From Chthonomonadaceae bacterium (lineage in GTDB: Bacteria; Armatimonadota; Chthonomonadetes; Chthonomonadales; Chthonomonadaceae), in contig DAIDHN010000034.1 in NCBI GenBank assembly GCA_027459665.1, forward strand, positions 1 through 41,864: 41,864 nucleotides of DNA, written 5' to 3'. This document shows positions 10,520 through 41,454 of this stretch, in pieces (within the stretch, counting starts at the first letter, position 1; every line of letters starts with the position of its first letter). The notes under the pieces are model-generated. The model ran no database searches. It was not told where the DNA came from and worked only from the letters and a program-made list of their open reading frames with translations. The translations under genes and the position numbers were made by a program.

Positions 10520-10673
10520 ACATCACGCGCCGCATCCTGTTTAGCCCCTCATCACTGCCTTCAAATGCTTCTGCACTGTGCTGCATTAAAATGAGTTGAA
10601 TGTATATCAAATTATTTGGCTTAATGCATTTGGCAGGGTACACTGCAACAGATATGAAATGAGGCAGAATGCC

Positions 10674-13622
10674 ATGCAAACAGCGCTAATCACATTTCTT
10701 TTTACAGACATGGAAGGCTCTACCGCCCTTTGGGAAGCATATCCCGATGCTATGCATACTGCACTGCAAAGGCACGATGCCCTCCTGCTCAAATGCATGC
10801 AGGAGGCAGGGGGCCATGTGTTCAAAACTGTAGGAGATGCATTTTGCACTGCTTTTGAACGCACAGAGCAGGCAGTTTGCGCTGCACTTGCCGCACAGAA
10901 GGCGCTGATGCAGGAACCCTGGCCAGAACCGCTGCAGATAAAGGTGCGCATGGCGCTGCACAGCGGAACCGCAGAATACAGAAACAACGACTGGTTTGGC
11001 CCTGTACTCAACCGAACCGCACGTCTGCTCGATATTGCTCATGGAGGGCAAATCATTATCTCGGCAGCTGCACGAGACCTGCTGGCCAGCCTGCCGCAAA
11101 ACACCTTGCTCAAAGAAATGGGGCAGCATGGCCTCAAAGACCTTTCCAGCCCTGAAACCGTATATCAGCTGATACACCCCGACCTGCCTTCCGACTTTCC
11201 TCCTCTGCGCTCACTTCAAATCGAACGCACCAACCTTCCCCAGCAGCTCACCTCTTTTGTAGGCAGGCAGAGCTTATTGCAGCATACGCAAACACTGCTG
11301 AGTCAAACCAGGCTGCTTACCCTCACCGGCAGCGGCGGCTGCGGCAAAACCCGGCTGGCTCTGCAAGCCGCAGCCAGTGCAGCAAATCGATTTGCCGAAG
11401 GAGTGTGGCTGGTAGAACTCGCCCCCCTCAGCGATGCCACATTGATTGCTGGAGAAATAATGCGCGTTTTGAAGCTGCATGAAGAACAGGGCAAACCACC
11501 GATTGACACTTTGTGCCGTTCGCTGAAATCACGCAACATGCTGCTGCTGCTGGATAACTGCGAACACCTGCTGGCAGAATGCTCATTGCTCTGCGACACC
11601 CTGCTGCGCGAATGCAAAAATTTGCAAATTCTGCTTACTTCCCGTTCTCCGCTGCAAATTGCAGGCGAGCATATCTTGACGGTACCCCCCATGCAGCTGC
11701 CCGACAGGCAGGGGAATATGCATCAACTTGAAAACTCTGAATCTGTTGCTCTTTTTCTGGAAAGAGTGCAGGCTGTGCAGCCGTTTTTTGAAATAAATCA
11801 GCAAAACTGTCTGCTCGCTGCAGAAGTATGCCGCCAGCTTGACGGCATTCCATTTGCCATAGAACTGGCAGCTGCGCGAATGCGCTCTATGAGCCTCGAA
11901 CAGGTTGCCCAGCGCCTCAACGACCGTTTTCACCTTCTGCGCAGCAGCAGCCGCACCGCGCAGCCCCGCCAGCAAACTCTGCGCGACATGATAAACTGGA
12001 GCCACGATTTGCTGCAGCCCGAAGAAAAAACGCTTCTGCACAGGCTGAGCGTATTTGCCGGCAGCTTTTCGCTGGAGGCATGCGAGGCAGTATGCACCGA
12101 TGATATTGTGAAGCGCGAAGATGCACTGGATTTACTTGCTTCTCTGGTAGATAAAAGCCTGGTAGCCTTTGAAGGAAACCGCTACAGAATGCTGGAGACC
12201 ATGAGGCAGTACGCAGGGGGCATATTGAAAGAGGAAGGTGAAGACGCCCCGTTTTGCAGAAGACATGCTCTCTGGTGCTGCATGGCCGCACAGATGGCCG
12301 AAGAGGGCCTGAAGGGTGCATTACAGCAGGAAGCGATGAAGAGCATTGAGACAGAACTGGATAATATGCGCGCCGCCCTGGAATACTGCGCAAAAACCGA
12401 ACAGATGGCAGAAGAAGGGTTAAGCCTGTGCAGTATGCTTTACGGATTCTGGCGGGCACATGGCCTGTGGACCGAAGGGCTGGAATACACCAGAAAGGCT
12501 TTGCAGCACCCTGAAGCTGCCCAGGCAGAAGCTGCACGCGCACAGGCGCTGAATGCGGCAGGCAACTTTTACTTAATGCTGGGCAGCTACCTGCAGGCAC
12601 GTGCGCACCTAGAAGAAGGCGCAGCGCTTTTTCGCACTTTGGCCGACACGGCAGGTTTGGCGCGCGCTCTTTCTCATTTGGGAATGTTATGCGAGAAAGA
12701 AGGCGACCTCACGCAGGCAATGGTCTGCTTTGAAGAAAGCCATGCACTTTATCTGCAAACAGCAGATGTGCAGGGCATGGCTTATGTGCTGCGCAACATG
12801 GGCTGGGTAGCAGTGCGGCGGGAAGATTACGAAACAGCCCTGCATCTTTACGAAGAAAGCCTGTCGCATTTGCGAAGCCGCCATGATTTGCTTGGCATAA
12901 GCAGTGTATTGAACCATATGGGATCGATGGCATACGTGCAGCGCCGTTACGCAGAAGCAAAATCGCGTTTTGAAGAAAGCTTGCAAATTATGCTGCAAAT
13001 GGGAGACCGCATAGGCGCGGCAGTAGTGCAGTGCAACCTGGGCAATATTGAAACGGTAGAAGGGTGTTATGATGCAGCGCAGAGCCATTATGAAGAATGC
13101 TTGGCAACTTTTCAGGAACTGGGGCACCAGGAGGGAATAGCAGGCATTTTACTGGCAAAAAGCTTTCTCGCCATGAGAGTGAGCAAACATGAAGAGGCGC
13201 TGGGCTTTGCAGTGCAGAGCGTGCAAATCTACCAGTCGCTTCGTCAGATGAATGGTCTCATTCAGGCTCTGGTCAGCGAAGGGGTGGCGCTGTGCGCCAT
13301 GGAGAGATACCAGGAAGCGCAGAGTGTTCTGAAGCAAACCCTGTCGCTTATACTAAAAACAGACATTCATCGTATGTACCACTATGCAATGCGACTGCTG
13401 GCAGACATTGAAATGGCAGCAGGCAGGGAAGCAAATGCAGTGCTGCTTTACAGCGCCGCATGCCATGCGGAATCAGAGCTTGAACCTGCGGAATATGAGA
13501 TGCTTGAGCAAAGGAAAACGCAGGCAAGGGAAATACTTGGCGCTAAGGTTTTTGAAGCAGCATGGCAAACAGGCATACAGTGGAACTATAAGGAAGCCAT
13601 TGATTTTGCTTTGAACTTATAA
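10674..13622 (+). CDS. Class III nucleotide cyclase - STAND ATPase - TPR protein
   Basis: A 982-residue signalling protein. Residues 1-190 are a class III adenylate/guanylate cyclase domain: LFTDMEGST carries the first metal Asp (D12), VFKTVGDAF carries Lys51 (base-specifying position) and the second metal Asp (D55), and FGPVLNRTARL carries the Asn/Arg pair, so it looks active. From about 205 a STAND/NB-ARC-like ATPase follows, with Walker A GSGGCGKTRLA near 218-226, Walker B LLLLDNCEHLL and LDGIPFAIELAAARM. Residues about 600-960 are TPR repeats (for example YETALHLYEESLSHL, YAEAKSRFEESLQIM). No HTH or membrane segment is seen. ATG 10674 follows GAGG at nine bases; in-frame ATGs at 10596 and 10659 lack an SD. 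Its 220-base upstream gap contains the lysS terminator. STAND proteins usually sense a ligand through the repeats. Confidence 0.88.
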   Translation: MQTALITFLFTDMEGSTALWEAYPDAMHTALQRHDALLLKCMQEAGGHVFKTVGDAFCTAFERTEQAVCAALAAQKALMQEPWPEPLQIKVRMALHSGTAEYRNNDWFGPVLNRTARLLDIAHGGQIIISAAARDLLASLPQNTLLKEMGQHGLKDLSSPETVYQLIHPDLPSDFPPLRSLQIERTNLPQQLTSFVGRQSLLQHTQTLLSQTRLLTLTGSGGCGKTRLALQAAASAANRFAEGVWLVELAPLSDATLIAGEIMRVLKLHEEQGKPPIDTLCRSLKSRNMLLLLDNCEHLLAECSLLCDTLLRECKNLQILLTSRSPLQIAGEHILTVPPMQLPDRQGNMHQLENSESVALFLERVQAVQPFFEINQQNCLLAAEVCRQLDGIPFAIELAAARMRSMSLEQVAQRLNDRFHLLRSSSRTAQPRQQTLRDMINWSHDLLQPEEKTLLHRLSVFAGSFSLEACEAVCTDDIVKREDALDLLASLVDKSLVAFEGNRYRMLETMRQYAGGILKEEGEDAPFCRRHALWCCMAAQMAEEGLKGALQQEAMKSIETELDNMRAALEYCAKTEQMAEEGLSLCSMLYGFWRAHGLWTEGLEYTRKALQHPEAAQAEAARAQALNAAGNFYLMLGSYLQARAHLEEGAALFRTLADTAGLARALSHLGMLCEKEGDLTQAMVCFEESHALYLQTADVQGMAYVLRNMGWVAVRREDYETALHLYEESLSHLRSRHDLLGISSVLNHMGSMAYVQRRYAEAKSRFEESLQIMLQMGDRIGAAVVQCNLGNIETVEGCYDAAQSHYEECLATFQELGHQEGIAGILLAKSFLAMRVSKHEEALGFAVQSVQIYQSLRQMNGLIQALVSEGVALCAMERYQEAQSVLKQTLSLILKTDIHRMYHYAMRLLADIEMAAGREANAVLLYSAACHAESELEPAEYEMLEQRKTQAREILGAKVFEAAWQTGIQWNYKEAIDFALNL

Positions 13623-29668: not shown

Positions 29669-30355
29669 TCAGGGCTGATTCAAGGCGAACCATGCATCCT
29701 GAGGCTGCTGCCCGCTGGCAAACTGTCCTATTCGCATCCATTTCACATGACCATCTACCATAGCGGCCACCACTCCATCAGAGTGTCTCGGATCAGGTCT
29801 TCCCCAATAATCCGCATCAGGCTGCGAGGGCGGCAGCATATAGGTAGAAAGGTGGTCTGACGGCGCATATCCGTTGATGCCGCGATTGTCTGCAATCATC
29901 ACCGTGTGAGCAGGCGCCGATATTGCGGCCAGCGATACGCCGGGCGCATTGTTGAGCGTATACACATTCTGAACCTGCACACCCTGGTTCAGGTAATATG
30001 CATTCCAGCCATACTGACAAACAGGCTTGCCGTAGATATTGTGCACAGGCAAATTAGCATCCGGGCAGAGCCAAATCTGTTTATTCCTTGTGTACGGAGT
30101 GAGCAGATCATGCCAGTTGAGAAACGTACTCGGATTAGGGGCGGTAGCTGCCAGCGGAACTCGTTCATCGTAGTCCTGTGTATACAGCATAGCGGCCATC
30201 CCCATTTGCCTCTGATTAGAAAGACATTCGGTTTGCCTCGCCTTTTCCCGCGCCTGTGCGAAAACAGGGAAAAGAATTGCAGCTAGTATCGCTATAATCG
30301 CTATCACCACAAGCAATTCTACCAAAGTAAACGCGGCTGCGCCTTTTTTCGGCAT
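29669..30355 (-). CDS. Prepilin-like protein with DUF1559-type C-terminal domain
   Basis: A 228-residue protein with a type IV pilin/pseudopilin N-terminus: [17 protein letters not shown] followed by an [16 protein letters not shown] helix. The cleavage-site region has KKG then AAA before the Phe, unlike the usual G-F junction. The [18 protein letters not shown] stretch and the tail with [20 protein letters not shown] (H-x9-DG-like motif) are typical of the many prepilin-domain proteins of Armatimonadota and Planctomycetes. ATG 30355 follows GAAAGGGCG; the ATG at 30481 lies upstream of the promoter. Function in these phyla is unproven: a surface or secretion pseudopilin. Confidence 0.88.
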
Positions 30356-30394
30356 TTTCGCCCTTTCCCTGCCTGCATCAGACACAAGCCGCAT

Positions 30395-30423
30395 AGTATA
30401 ACACAGTTTTGCCTGGTTTGCAA
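30395..30423 (-). promoter_or_regulatory. Sigma-70 promoter of prepilin-like gene
   Basis: TTGCAA (30423-30418) and TATACT (30400-30395) are 17 bases apart. The start site would be about 33 bases upstream of the ATG at 30355. Confidence 0.8.
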
Positions 30424-30519
30424 GCAGGATTTGCAAAAAAATACTACGTACCTGCTTCTGTATCGGTTCCCCGGCACGCAAAAAAATTTTGATTAATCTT
30501 TTACCAGCATTCTGTTCTC

Positions 30520-35309: not shown

Positions 35310-38072
35310 ATGAGCCTCTCACGCCGCAAGTTTATCTCCTCCGCCGCCGGCATGAGCGGAGCAGCCCTTGCCTCCTCAAAACTCAATGCCGCCCCCTATC
35401 GGGTAGAAACCGGCGGCAGAACAGAGGGCACAGCCGCCGGCACGCACACAGCAGGCGGCTCTGTTATGATTCCGGCCGCCATGCCCATGATATCAGGCAC
35501 GCCGCTGGGTGGAATCGGAACAGGCTTTGTAGAGGTGCGTGCAGATGGCTGTTTCTACGACTGGGAGATTTTTAATGCAGGTTCATGGGCGCCCGGTGCC
35601 CGCTCCACCAACTCATACAACCCCAGCCTGCACTTTGTGTTGCGCACCAAAACCCTTTCCAGCAATACCCCTCAGGTACGCCGCCTCTATCTTCGGCCAG
35701 AAGAGAATGATCTCTACTCGCTGCCGATGCTGCAAGATGTTGAATCGATCAAGTATTACTCGCAATTCCCAATGACAGGGCTGCAGTATCAAGACAGCAC
35801 ACTGCCGCTGCAGGTTTCTGCACGAATTTTTTCACCCATCATTCCAGGCAGTACCCGCGATTCGGGCACCCCCGGTTTTCATGTAGCATACACTCTAAAA
35901 AATACCGGCAAAGAAACAGTTGAGGCTGCAGTGGCAGGGTTTCTGGATAATCCGCTGGCTTCTGCACTGCCGGAGCGCAGGCTGACAAACACGCTGACGC
36001 ACAAAAACGGTGCGACGCGCATACTAATGAATACCGCCGCGCAAAGCGATTTTCCGTCTGGCATTGGCAGCATGTGCCTGTCGGTAACCAACGGCGAGCA
36101 TTCGTACATCACAGGCACTTACCAGCAATACGCCCGGCCTGCAGCAACTGCCTGGCGCACCCCGCGCGTAAACATGATGATCATCAGCGTGATAGAGCAG
36201 CTGGCAGCGGCAGGAAAACTGCCCAACACCAGCTGCAGCACAGACCCTGCCATTGGCCTTCCGTCAGCAGCAGAAATAGATGCTCTTTCAAATGCCGATG
36301 TACAGCAGCTTATGCACAGGCTTTCTGCAGATGCCCTGCTTGCCCGCATATTTGCCGATGCTCATGCCGCCAATCCGACTGGAGGAGTGCAAGCCGACCG
36401 CGAACTGCTGAAAGAGGTAATCGAAAACATAGGCGGCAGTGCGCAGCACTCGCGCTGGGGTTCTGCAGCGCTTGCATCCACTGTAGTTCTCAAGCCTGGA
36501 CAGAGCATGGATATCCGGTTTACATTCAGCTGGTTCTTCCCAAATCATCTCACCCCCGACGGCCGCTTCATGGGGCATATGTACAGCAACTGGTACAACA
36601 ACGCCGCAGAAGTAAACAGCTTCCTCTGTACAAGCTATCCGCGCCACTTGGCCGAAACCGACAAGTTTGCACAAACTATTGCCCATACATCGCTTGGCGA
36701 CCCCTTGGCGTTCAGCTGGTCAAGCCAGCTCTCCACGCTGGTATTCAATACCTGGTGGACAAAAGACGGCAGCTACGCTATTTGGGAGGGGCTGGGCTGC
36801 TGCGGCCTCTCTACCACCGATGTTGACTATCAGGGCAGCTTCCCAATCATTGCTCTCTTCCCCGAACTGAAACTGGAACAGATGAAACAGATCATCGGCT
36901 ATCAGAGCAATGAAGGCCAGGTGCCGCACAACTACAGTGGCTATGTGCACCAGGTTGACAGCGGATTTATGCGGGTAGATATGAACCCGCAGTTTGTTAT
37001 GATGGTGTGCCGAGACTTTTTGTGGACCGGCGACCGCGAATACCTTGCTGCAATGTGGCCGCACGTAGTTTGGGCAATGGCATTCACCGAATCGCTGGAC
37101 ACCAATGGCGATGCGCTGCCAGACCACGACACCGGGCTGCAAACCTACGACCAGTGGCGTATGCGGGGTACCCCCTCATACATAGCATCGCTGTGGATAG
37201 GCGGATTGAGGGCAGCGGTGCGCCTCGCCGAAGAGATGGGTATGCAGACAGAAACGCAGCACTGGTCTGATCTGCTGCAAAAAGCATCTGCCAGGTTCGA
37301 CTCTATGCTGTTCAACGGGGAATACTACAGCCTTTGGGCCGACGGTGCACTGCGCGACGAACTATGCATGACCGATCAGATTTCGGGTGAATGGTTCTCT
37401 TCTCTCATTGGTCTGCCCCAAACACTTTCGCATCAGCATTTAGGCCGCGCAATAGAGAGCATTGTAAAGTACAACTTCAACCCTGAGTTTGGCCTGCACA
37501 ACGCCACAGCCCCCAAACGAAACGGTCGCGACCTTCTGGCCCTTTCCAATCTGCAGGCTGGCGGAGTGTGGTCTGGCATTGAGTTTGCTTTTGCCTCGCT
37601 GCTTATGGATCATGGCTATTACGCCGACGGCGCGCGAATAGTGGAGGCTGTCTACCGCAGGTATCTTCGCGCCGGCAGGCCATGGAACCATGTAGAGTGC
37701 GGCAACCACTACTCACGCGCCATGAGCAGCTGGGCCACCCTGTTGGCAGCCACGGGCTTTAAGCCAGACGCGCCCCATCAAAGCGTTGCGGTTATTCCCA
37801 CAGTGCCCGGCGACTTTCATGCTCCCTGGGTTACCTCAGCCGCATACGGCATCATAAGGCGCACTGGCCGCACACTCTCGCTTGAATGCTGCAGCGGAAA
37901 GCTTGAACTGAGGCAGATCAAGACACCGCCCAATGCGCACTCTGTATTGCTAAACGACCGAAAAATCGACTCGCATATCACAAGAGAAGGTGAAGAGGCT
38001 GTTGTTCAGTTCGCCTCGCCTGTTCTGCTCACCGAAAACAGCAGGCTCGCTATTGCTCTCAAAAGCGCGTAG
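35310..38072 (+). CDS. Tat-exported GH116 glycosidase (GBA2-like)
   Basis: A 920-residue enzyme of glycoside hydrolase family 116, which includes beta-glucosidases, beta-xylosidases and GBA2 glucosylceramidase. It begins with a Tat signal (SRRKFISSAAGMSGAALAS). The N-terminal beta-sandwich starts at ISGTPLGGIGTGFVEVRADG. The catalytic (alpha/alpha)6 domain has the expected nucleophile Glu493 in AIWEGLGCCGLSTTDV and the acid/base Asp614 in LQTYDQWRMRGTPSYIASLW. LFPELKLEQ and TDQISGEWF are further family motifs. ATG 35310 follows CAGGAGCAGACA. Export folded through Tat implies action in the periplasm or outside, presumably on plant or microbial glycosides; the sugar is not determined by sequence. 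Confidence 0.9.
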   Translation: MSLSRRKFISSAAGMSGAALASSKLNAAPYRVETGGRTEGTAAGTHTAGGSVMIPAAMPMISGTPLGGIGTGFVEVRADGCFYDWEIFNAGSWAPGARSTNSYNPSLHFVLRTKTLSSNTPQVRRLYLRPEENDLYSLPMLQDVESIKYYSQFPMTGLQYQDSTLPLQVSARIFSPIIPGSTRDSGTPGFHVAYTLKNTGKETVEAAVAGFLDNPLASALPERRLTNTLTHKNGATRILMNTAAQSDFPSGIGSMCLSVTNGEHSYITGTYQQYARPAATAWRTPRVNMMIISVIEQLAAAGKLPNTSCSTDPAIGLPSAAEIDALSNADVQQLMHRLSADALLARIFADAHAANPTGGVQADRELLKEVIENIGGSAQHSRWGSAALASTVVLKPGQSMDIRFTFSWFFPNHLTPDGRFMGHMYSNWYNNAAEVNSFLCTSYPRHLAETDKFAQTIAHTSLGDPLAFSWSSQLSTLVFNTWWTKDGSYAIWEGLGCCGLSTTDVDYQGSFPIIALFPELKLEQMKQIIGYQSNEGQVPHNYSGYVHQVDSGFMRVDMNPQFVMMVCRDFLWTGDREYLAAMWPHVVWAMAFTESLDTNGDALPDHDTGLQTYDQWRMRGTPSYIASLWIGGLRAAVRLAEEMGMQTETQHWSDLLQKASARFDSMLFNGEYYSLWADGALRDELCMTDQISGEWFSSLIGLPQTLSHQHLGRAIESIVKYNFNPEFGLHNATAPKRNGRDLLALSNLQAGGVWSGIEFAFASLLMDHGYYADGARIVEAVYRRYLRAGRPWNHVECGNHYSRAMSSWATLLAATGFKPDAPHQSVAVIPTVPGDFHAPWVTSAAYGIIRRTGRTLSLECCSGKLELRQIKTPPNAHSVLLNDRKIDSHITREGEEAVVQFASPVLLTENSRLAIALKSA

Positions 38073-38157: not shown

Positions 38158-41100
38158 ATGTTGAATCATAAGCGTGGTCAAGTTGCAGCAGTTATAGCCG
38201 CACTCTGTTTTGCCTGCATGATATATGCTTCCCCACTGCTTGCGGCGCCGAAAACTCCTACCCGGGTATCTCAACAGCAGATAAAGCGATATATTGCAGA
38301 ACTTCACTCGCCGCATTTCTATATACGAATAAATGCCGCCTACTTCCTGGGTAAGGCAGGCGCAGCTGCTGCACAGGCAGTACCTGATTTGATTGCGGCC
38401 CTCAACGATGTAAATCCGAGTGTTCGCGGATCAGCCGTCTACGCACTGGGTCACATAGGCGCGCCTGCCGCCTCTGCAGTACACGCCTTATTGCAGACAA
38501 TCAAGACAAATCCACAGCTGCACGATGATATATTCGATAGTATAATTCATATTGGCGCACCTGCAGTCAGAGCCTTGATGCTGGCTAACGTAGACTTGTC
38601 TCCCCTTCATGAAAACACAGATGCAGAAAATATTCTGTCACAGATTTTGATAAACAACCCCGGTGCGGTGCCAGCATTGATACAAGCCCTCAAGGACAAA
38701 GATGCTTCTATGCGTTATACGGCAGCCAGCAGCCTGTGGATGATGGGTGAGTGGAGACATGCTGCGGCCGCTGCGCCTGCTGTTCCTGCCCTGATTGCAG
38801 CACTCCATGACATCCCCTCGGTTAGTAAGGAAGCGGCCCAGGCGCTGGGGGTGATCGGCGGACACAATCCGGCTACCGTCCCGGCGTTGGCCGCCGCTCT
38901 CCAGAATACAGATTTGAATACACGTGAAGCAGCGGCCCAGGCGCTGGGGCAGATCGGTGCGCCCGCCGCACCCGCTGTTCCGGCATTGACTGCAGCTCTC
39001 AATGACATACCATTTGTTAGCGATGCAGCAGCCGATGCACTGGGGCAGATCGGTGCGCCTGCTGCAGCTGCAGTTCCGGCATTGATTCGCCGATCCATAA
39101 AGAGCAACTTCATTGGCAACAACTTCGACACTGCCCTTGGGAAAATAGGCGTGCCCGCAATACCGTTTTTGCTCCGTTCCTTGAAGAGCAAGCGTAGTAT
39201 CACTCGCATGAATGCAGCAGCTGCACTGGCACAGATAGGCAAGTCTGCCGCCTCAATTGTTCCCGCCTTGATTGCAGCACTCAAGGATGCCAATTCCATG
39301 GTTCGCAGTTGGGCTGCCAATGCACTGGAGCAGATAGGCAAGCCTGCCGCACCCGCTGTTCCGGCATTGATTGCAGCACTCAAGGATGCCAGTTTCCTTG
39401 TTCGCAGTTCGGCTGCAGGGGCACTGGGGCAGATAGGCAAGCCTGCCGCACCTGCAGTACCTGTCTTGATTGCAGCGCTCAAGGATAACCATTCCATTGT
39501 TCGCATTTCGGCCACCGAAGCATTAGGGCAAATTGGCAAGCCTGCCGCCCCCGCTGTTCCGGCATTGATTGCAGCGCTCAAGGATAGCAACCATTACGTG
39601 TGGTCAGCAGCTTTCGAGGCACTGGGTCAGATTGGTGCGCCTGCAGCGCCCGCTGTTCCAGCATTGACTGCAGCGCTCAAAGATACCGATTCCAATGTGC
39701 GCAATTTGGCTGCGGAGGCACTGGGGCAGATTGGCGTGCCCGCTGCCCCCGCTGTTCCGGCATTGACTGCAGCACTCAAAGATACCAGCCCCAATGTTCG
39801 CAGTTCGGCTGCAGGGGCACTGGGAGAAATCGGCAAGCCTGCAGTTTCGGCTGTTCCTGCATTGTTTGGCGCCCTCAGTGATGCCAATGCCAATGTTTGT
39901 GGTGCGGCATACGGCGCCATAGTAAAGATTGGCCAGCCTGCCGCATCCACCATGCCTACTCTCCTACTGTATCTCAAGGGTAAAAACGCCCTCGCGCGCA
40001 ATCAGGCGGCCACTGAACTTGGGAATATGGGTAAACCTGCTGTTCCAGCTCTCATCCTTGTCCTGTCGAATAGTGACCCAGGCACTCGTACGGCAGCCAT
40101 CAATGCACTTGGACAAATTGGCACACCCGCAGCCTCTGCAGTACCTGTCTTGATTAATGCACTCAAAGATGTAAACTCAAACGTTCGTACGGCAGCCATC
40201 AAAGCACTCGGACAAATTGGCGCACCCGCAGTATCTGCTATTCCAGCCCTGATACGTACTCTTCGTACTGCTCCACCCGATCTTCGCGGGCCAATCAGCT
40301 TTGCCGAATCCACTGTTCGCAGTAGTATCGAATCTTCCCTGTTCAAGATTGGTATGCCTGCCGCTTCTATGATGCCTGTTCTTATTCACTTTCTCGGTGA
40401 TCAAGACTACAGGCTTCGCTATAACGCCATAAATGAGCTTGTGAAAATAGGCAAACCTGCTGTTTCTGCGCTGACTCAGGCTCTATCAGATATAAACTCT
40501 AATACCCGCACCTATGCCGCAGAAACCTTGGGGCAGATCGGTGCGCCTGCCGCACCTGCTGTTCCAAACTTGATTGCACTCCTCAAGGATGCCAGTCCCA
40601 ATGTTAGCAGGCTGGCAGTCATCGCACTTGACAATATCGGTGTGCCTGCGATTCCTGACTTGATAGCAGCACTCAAAAACGCAAATCCAGCTATTCGTAA
40701 TAGGGCCGCATCTGCACTGGGATATATGAAAGCGCCAGCCGCACCAGCGGTTCCCTCCCTCATTCCACTCCTCAAAGACGCCAGTCCCAAAATTCGCGGG
40801 GCAGTAGCAGAAGCTCTGGGCATGATAGGCGTATCTGCCGCACCTGCTGTTCCAAACTTGATTGCACTCCTCAAGGATGTCAGCCCCAATGTTCGCAGTT
40901 TGGCAGTTTATGCCCTGGGGCAGATTGGCAAGCCTGCCGCGCCCGCTGTTCCAAACTTGATTGCAGCGCTCAGTGATGCCAGCCCCGAGGTTCGCTCCTC
41001 GGCCGCTTCTGCACTGGGGCAAATTGGCAAGCCTGCCGCCCCTGCTGTTCCCGCCTTGATTGCAGTACTCAAGGATGCCAGCCCCAATGTTCGCGCTTCG

Positions 41101-41454
41101 GCCGCATCTGCACTGGGACAAATAGGAGCGCCAGCTGCCCCGGCGGTTCCTGACCTGATTCCGCTTCTCAAAAGCAGTGACGTATTCGTATTCAGGTCAG
41201 CAGCTACCGCTCTGGGACATATTGGCGTGCCTGCTGCCCCGGCGGTTCCTGACCTCATTGCAGCTCTCAAGAATAGTGACCCGTTTGTATCTCAGGCAGC
41301 GGTAACTGCCCTGGGGCAGATTGGCGCACCAGCAGCATCGGCGGTACCTGCCCTGCGTCTGGCCGTCAAAAACAATGCACCGTGGCTTAGTAATGTGGCA
41401 GCTGCTGCTCTGAAGATGATTGAGGCTTCTGTTGCAAAAGAAAAGAGCAAATAA
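38158..41454 (+). CDS. Secreted HEAT-repeat solenoid protein
   Basis: A 1098-residue protein. A signal peptide (GQVAAVIAALCFACMIYASP, cleavage near LAA-PK) is followed by roughly thirty PBS-lyase/HEAT-type helical repeats of about 33 residues, up to the C-terminus. The consensus unit is close to PAAPAVPALIAALKD then xxxVRSxAAxALGQIGK. Some units (near residues 300-340 and 700-760) are longer or irregular. There is no catalytic domain, membrane anchor or sorting signal. HEAT solenoids bind proteins or act as scaffolds. ATG 38158 has AGAGG seven bases upstream. Many units are nearly identical at DNA level, so copy number may vary. It lies 85 bases after the GH116 gene and could share its regulation. 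Confidence 0.9.
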   Translation: MLNHKRGQVAAVIAALCFACMIYASPLLAAPKTPTRVSQQQIKRYIAELHSPHFYIRINAAYFLGKAGAAAAQAVPDLIAALNDVNPSVRGSAVYALGHIGAPAASAVHALLQTIKTNPQLHDDIFDSIIHIGAPAVRALMLANVDLSPLHENTDAENILSQILINNPGAVPALIQALKDKDASMRYTAASSLWMMGEWRHAAAAAPAVPALIAALHDIPSVSKEAAQALGVIGGHNPATVPALAAALQNTDLNTREAAAQALGQIGAPAAPAVPALTAALNDIPFVSDAAADALGQIGAPAAAAVPALIRRSIKSNFIGNNFDTALGKIGVPAIPFLLRSLKSKRSITRMNAAAALAQIGKSAASIVPALIAALKDANSMVRSWAANALEQIGKPAAPAVPALIAALKDASFLVRSSAAGALGQIGKPAAPAVPVLIAALKDNHSIVRISATEALGQIGKPAAPAVPALIAALKDSNHYVWSAAFEALGQIGAPAAPAVPALTAALKDTDSNVRNLAAEALGQIGVPAAPAVPALTAALKDTSPNVRSSAAGALGEIGKPAVSAVPALFGALSDANANVCGAAYGAIVKIGQPAASTMPTLLLYLKGKNALARNQAATELGNMGKPAVPALILVLSNSDPGTRTAAINALGQIGTPAASAVPVLINALKDVNSNVRTAAIKALGQIGAPAVSAIPALIRTLRTAPPDLRGPISFAESTVRSSIESSLFKIGMPAASMMPVLIHFLGDQDYRLRYNAINELVKIGKPAVSALTQALSDINSNTRTYAAETLGQIGAPAAPAVPNLIALLKDASPNVSRLAVIALDNIGVPAIPDLIAALKNANPAIRNRAASALGYMKAPAAPAVPSLIPLLKDASPKIRGAVAEALGMIGVSAAPAVPNLIALLKDVSPNVRSLAVYALGQIGKPAAPAVPNLIAALSDASPEVRSSAASALGQIGKPAAPAVPALIAVLKDASPNVRASAASALGQIGAPAAPAVPDLIPLLKSSDVFVFRSAATALGHIGVPAAPAVPDLIAALKNSDPFVSQAAVTALGQIGAPAASAVPALRLAVKNNAPWLSNVAAAALKMIEASVAKEKSK

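Follow-up and report, generated by a model that had tools for sequence, protein, structure and literature searches.

A reading frame of 1,098 codons in the window (the whole stretch of DNA analysed, a single contig of 41,864 bases from a 3.67 Mb genome in 118 contigs) probably encodes an exported HEAT superhelix: a periplasmic or extracellular binding scaffold, contacting its ligand or ligands through one face, with an array grown by 99-bp duplication. We infer export and binding from the predicted protein, and the binding face is proposed by analogy with the designed alphaRep proteins. Variation is concentrated on the six positions randomised in alphaRep, and an exported binding solenoid is therefore suggested. 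In this model a signal peptide would export the superhelix to the periplasm or cell exterior, each unit would contribute two helices, and a conserved core would stack the units on one another. The same six positions of every unit would vary and form an exposed face contacting one or more ligands, while the array would have grown as 99-bp units were duplicated, for the most part in the distant past, and units would since have been exchanged locally from time to time. The coordinates of the features are collected in Table 1.

Table 1. Features of the HEAT gene and its immediate surroundings (window coordinates)
Feature	Position	Strand	Basis or remark
HEAT-repeat solenoid ORF, 1,098 aa, apparently exported	38158..41454	+	ORF translation, Pfam
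Signal-peptide-like N-terminus, residues ~1-31	38158..38250	+	cleavage near LLA/APK, judged by eye
Units 0-9, diverged, irregular length (30-36 aa)	38266..39246	+	
Units 10-16, regular 33-aa array	39247..39939	+	contains the pair most alike in DNA (86%)
Units 17-22, diverged	39940..40548	+	unit 20 of 44 aa, units 18 and 22 of 30 aa
45-bp tract, unit 23	40547..40591	+	exact copy of 40835-40879; possible product of conversion or duplication
Units 23-30, second regular array	40549..41331	+	unit 24 of 30 aa
Second copy of the 45-bp tract, unit 26	40835..40879	+	
Unit 31 and lysine-containing C-terminus	41332..41451	+	
GH116-type (DUF608) glycosidase, upstream neighbour	35310..38072	+	Pfam
Perfect inverted repeat, 18-bp arms, 6-nt loop	41553..41594	.	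between HEAT gene and 16S rRNA gene

The N-terminus of the HEAT protein is made up of basic residues, a hydrophobic stretch (AVIAALCFACMI) and a small-residue end, as judged by eye and from hydropathy (mean of 2.82 over residues 11-22). This arrangement resembles a signal peptide, from which export is predicted. The protein matches the Pfam HEAT_2 profile (PF13646) at 8e-157 and 510.4 bits, above the gathering score of 27.7, together with HEAT (6.9e-112) and HEAT_PBS (1.1e-83). All 19 Pfam families listed are of the helical-repeat (HEAT/ARM) type, with no catalytic or anchor domain among them, and the C-terminus contains lysine with no anchor motif seen by eye. Seven NCBIfam families also match (CpcE, CpcF, NblB, CpeY, PRK13800, PRK09687 and DVU0298_fam), and the protein falls under the cut-off for the first six. 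DVU0298_fam (NF045662) scores 149.5 bits and so formally passes its cut-off of 75, but this is a summed score in which no single stretch reaches 75 alone, and many HEAT units can add up to such a sum. The GC content of the gene (0.547) is close to that of the window (0.542), and composition therefore shows no sign of recent import.

Structure prediction, proposed as a check in a first-pass annotation of this DNA, gave a regular solenoid for part of the protein and a poor model of the whole. The full-length single-sequence model has a pLDDT of 55.7, and two helices per unit are seen by prediction only, in a 330-aa fragment of 10 units (residues 362-691; 39241-40230) for which the AlphaFold model consists of regular helix pairs (pLDDT 87.8, pTM 0.76). 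The signal-like start, the HEAT_2 match and this fragment model support the “secreted solenoid” of the same annotation. When the fragment model was used in a Foldseek search, an alphaRep fusion ranked first among the matches listed, and alphaRep-7 (4zv6) aligned with a TM score of 0.73, 44% identity and an rmsd of 2.9, the lowest among the best 50 listed. Sequence comparison with phmmer also places alphaRep sequences at the top, and four HEAT units match 4zv6 at 3.5e-78. The solenoid looks like a long, otherwise ordinary addition to a well-known family of binding scaffolds.

Positions 38266-41451 split without gaps into 32 HEAT units, in agreement with an earlier estimate of about thirty. Nineteen units are of 33 aa, eleven of 30-36 aa and one of 44 aa, and the last, including the C-terminus, is of 40 aa. 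Tandem Repeats Finder (TRF) detects 99-bp arrays inside 39223-39897 and 40704-41354 (73-82% matches), and on the first of these it also reports a 198-bp period that scores higher than 99 bp. The earlier description of near-identical repeats of about 99 bases thus holds for the period, but near-identity was rejected, the best pair of units being only 86% identical in DNA. This figure comes from a matrix of 17 of the 19 33-aa units (units 0 and 3 are too diverged for alignment), the same 17 being used in the shuffle tests. Across the 136 pairs whole-unit DNA identity runs from 42 to 86%, and seven pairs reach 80% or more (rounded), headed by units 11/15 (86%), 10/11 (83%), and 23/26 and 26/27 (both 81%).

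The common descent of the units is plain: where two units carry the same residue they use the same codon 53% of the time, whereas 500 synonymous-codon shuffles over units averaged 34% and peaked at 38%. Most of the divergence is old. The median dS of the 136 pairs is 1.24, with 82 pairs above 1 and 12 below 0.5, and saturated synonymous divergence, which the first-pass annotation had named, together with a constant number and order of repeats across strains, as evidence against its own proposal, is found in 17. Holding the protein fixed and permuting synonymous codons inside columns (1000 shuffles) leaves two statistics of the 17 units above the null, namely the longest run and the spread of identities (p=0.001 each); the best pair (p=0.19) and adjacent pairs (p=0.17) lie within it, and among ten consensus-like units the longest run alone exceeds the null (p=0.012). 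When codons were shuffled in columns, highest identity, spread, longest run and adjacent similarity of the 17 units were all above chance (p=0.001 each), and the two halves of a unit were correlated beyond chance as well (p=0.007). Restricted to the ten consensus-like units, this shuffle left the longest run (p=0.004), the similarity of neighbours (p=0.003) and the spread (p=0.03) above chance, with the best pair at p=0.06 and uncorrelated halves (p=0.88). The gene contains 12 exact repeats of at least 22 bp, the longest of which is the 45-bp tract common to units 23 and 26; this tract suggests recent local duplication or conversion. A fair reading is that most of the duplications behind the array are old and that this tract alone is a good candidate for a recent local exchange, so that of the earlier proposal the shared descent and a single recent-looking tract survive. 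Assembly collapse of the array seems unlikely, because the longest exact repeat is only 45 bp.

If the protein is a scaffold, where would a ligand sit? In the portion of PMC3754942 available, the randomised positions of alphaRep are 18, 19, 22, 23, 26 and 30, and these become 17, 18, 21, 22, 25 and 29 here, in a register read from alignments through a shared VR anchor. Over 17 units the mean entropy of these six face positions is 2.47 bits, compared with 0.91 bits for the other 27 (p=0.0002), and three positions that do not belong to the set, 7, 15 and 24, vary as well (>2 bits). The search for a conserved face on the solenoid, likewise suggested earlier, yielded one set of six positions that varies and core positions that are conserved. 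Residue preferences match those in the same portion of PMC3754942: proline is commonest at 17, small residues at 22 and glutamine at 29. The source, to the extent available, also has these positions varying generally in natural repeats of alphaRep type; variation of the face is therefore expected and is weak evidence for a ligand. By analogy with alphaRep, the six positions are a putative binding face.

A search of 291 phylum genomes, its own included (E 1e-36, two candidates scored per genome), turned up no full-length relative of the HEAT protein, and in this set its own genus is represented by its own genome alone. Five other genomes gave matches; the longest of these is 33% identical and spans query residues 321-1061. 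In a deeper search of 41 genomes, with as many as 18 candidates scored, every listed match apart from the gene itself starts at query residue 230 or later, and a contig scan with the HEAT protein as query recovered no orthologue. Judged by these searches, the gene is lineage-specific within the genomes covered. Other HEAT stretches in its own genome are 34-45% identical to it, and none is therefore a recent copy. A keyword search for literature on HEAT repeats in Armatimonadetes found none, which is no proof of absence in print.

How unusual the array is was gauged by adjacent-codon identity in 35 rows fetched by likeness to the query, a non-random sample in which L028 is itself part of the window and certain rows cover overlapping parts of one gene. 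Relative to its null the window gene has a z of 12.6 and L051 one of 13.5; values are raised in L048 (6.5), L018 (6.2), L044 (4.4) and L050 (3.4; on one contig with L048) and lie below 2.3 in the remaining rows except L028. Only one ORF among the 35 rows is longer than that of the window. Homogeneity of this kind is uncommon, yet not unique, in the likeness-fetched sample. The L051 array is the same as L072 (G170:C1), an 804-aa HEAT ORF with adjacent-codon identity above that of the window gene; by the hydropathy rule its protein is without an export-like start. By that rule, which is crude, 14 of 27 HEAT ORFs in a non-random set have an export-like N-terminus, two of them from the window's own genome. 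A very long open frame of 3,869 aa with HEAT matches was also seen on G038:C97. In one genus of the family a different HEAT gene can be compared between two related species (G001 versus G011; 789 and 820 aa, 60% identical), and the alignment has gaps of 31 and 62 residues, one and two whole units. This comparison of sequences shows that unit turnover occurs in the family, in a HEAT gene other than the window's. These two genes (L044, 6201-8648, and L045, 5921-8428), whose arrays differ by whole units, are surrounded by ORFs that we take to be RHS-like, and a role as immunity proteins is a candidate.

Downstream of the window gene the contig breaks off within a minus-strand 16S rRNA gene. The intervening inverted repeat probably ends transcription, to judge from its sequence, and it was not listed by the terminator scan. 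Elsewhere in the window, a 1,008-aa protein (10596-13622, +) has guanylate-cyclase, NB-ARC and TPR matches in an NLR-like signalling layout, and a DUF1559 protein (29669-30481, -) carries the prokaryotic N-terminal methylation motif and is pilin-like.

The first-pass annotation had also placed the gene next to an exported glycosidase, and the HEAT protein could be the partner of this upstream neighbour, for example a scaffold holding the glycosidase at its substrate. The two genes share a strand and lie 85 bp apart with no promoter-like match between them in a scan, and both proteins have export-like starts, that of the glycosidase (SRRKFIS) being presumably a twin-arginine-like motif. Four genomes of the family encode GH116 glycosidases of 75-76% identity (in one over the first 305 residues only), and no HEAT gene lies near them in the stretches read, although two of these loci, one beginning within GH116 itself and one with a downstream flank of 1.6 kb, carry little information on the downstream side. 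Over 26 GH116 loci, these four included and with flanks of unequal length, none has a HEAT match, and a glycosidase partner is very improbable. Membership of the bilin-lyase or degradation proteins of the PBS-lyase HEAT group (CpcE, CpcF, NblB) deserves hardly any credence: the protein does match these NCBIfam families, and the phycocyanobilin lyase alpha subunit 5n3u at 2e-9, but all three scores are below the curated cut-offs (CpcE 202.5/330, NblB 191.2/300 and CpcF 139.6/220 bits) and alphaRep sequences give much stronger matches, so that the resemblance is accounted for by the common HEAT consensus.

A stronger form of the scaffold reading would make the gene a fast-evolving recognition array, with ongoing copying or exchange of units, length differences between strains and diversifying selection on the face, as in the fungal HNWD receptors. 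The 45-bp exact tract and the whole-unit differences between G001 and G011 speak for it, and so, initially, did substitution rates. In a first analysis the 12 closest pairs had a dN/dS of 1.93 on the face, three adjacent pairs one of 1.15 and all pairs one of 0.87; a second gave 1.6-2.4 in selected pairs, with 2.21 (interval 1.05-4.48) for four disjoint low-dS pairs. Picking low-dS pairs biases such values upward. When pairs were picked on half of the non-face codons and dS was taken from the other half, the face of the window gene fell to 0.72 (0.33-1.38) and 0.80 (0.34-1.95), with 0.23 and 0.15 for non-face positions; both the disjoint-pair and the held-out tests use a unit finder that keeps 22 of the 32 units, and bootstrap intervals that assume independent positions. 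In the held-out analysis all pairs give 0.79 and adjacent pairs 0.98. Positive selection on the face of the window gene was accordingly given up: the face is nearly free of constraint and the core is conserved. The signal persists in another gene of the phylum, L072 (G170), where held-out pairs give 2.58 (1.32-5.97) and 1.78 (0.90-3.70). For two ORFs of L074 (G247) the values are 1.66-2.09, and of the four intervals one lies just above 1; L010 gives 1.04 (with no second value), L075 0.81 and 2.94 with wide intervals, and L012 and L014 have too few pairs. No excess is seen in L045 (0.99 and 0.71), in L044 (0.37 and 0.59) or in the collinear units of G001 and G011, where dN/dS is 0.28 on the face and 0.24 elsewhere (from ten anchors, one of them, at residue 352, false by eye, and with some units missed). 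With a median dS of 1.24 between units as well, a fast-evolving recognition array is an unlikely description of the window gene. At the other extreme, a structural spacer with no specific ligand, its shared codons a leftover of old expansion, would suit the age of most unit pairs, the near-neutral face and the lack of an orthologue in the genomes searched. Against this, the core is conserved and variation falls largely on a single set of positions, the pattern of a protein whose fold is maintained to make contacts, and a mere spacer is improbable.

An exported binding scaffold is therefore the preferred reading. A broader proposal is that the HEAT arrays of the phylum, many of which begin like exported proteins, are nature's equivalent of an alphaRep library, with unit duplication and exchange, a diversified face and lineage-specific recognition. 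This is doubtful, and its strongest sign comes from a gene other than the window's, L072. Should it be an exported HEAT solenoid and nothing more, the protein would give the alphaRep-type fold a long natural representative, lineage-specific within a phylum that has been little studied. Were unit exchange and face diversification to occur across strains, bacteria would here have a recognition system that evolves by shuffling units, and the search for a ligand could start from the six variable positions.

Among known systems, the designed alphaRep proteins (e.g., PDB 4zv6, 3ltj) share with the window protein the two-helix unit, a similar consensus and variable positions. Unlike them, the window protein is natural, apparently exported, and made up of 32 units of mostly 33 aa. 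Through its matches to the HEAT_2, HEAT and HEAT_PBS profiles it also resembles the HEAT_2 or PBS-lyase-like HEAT proteins of bacteria. The fungal HNWD receptors, as far as the available part of PMC12222747 describes them, likewise have tandem units that share DNA and vary at set positions. For those receptors the same part of the source reports units of >80% to 100% identity, polymorphic array length and diversifying selection, whereas in the window array only 7 of 136 pairs reach 80% and the maximum is 86%. Recently amplified beta-propellers (PMC9218822, in the part available) are similar in that amplification and differentiation of repeats are visible in DNA, but they adopt another fold and their blades are, in the best cases, nearly identical, unlike the units of the window array.
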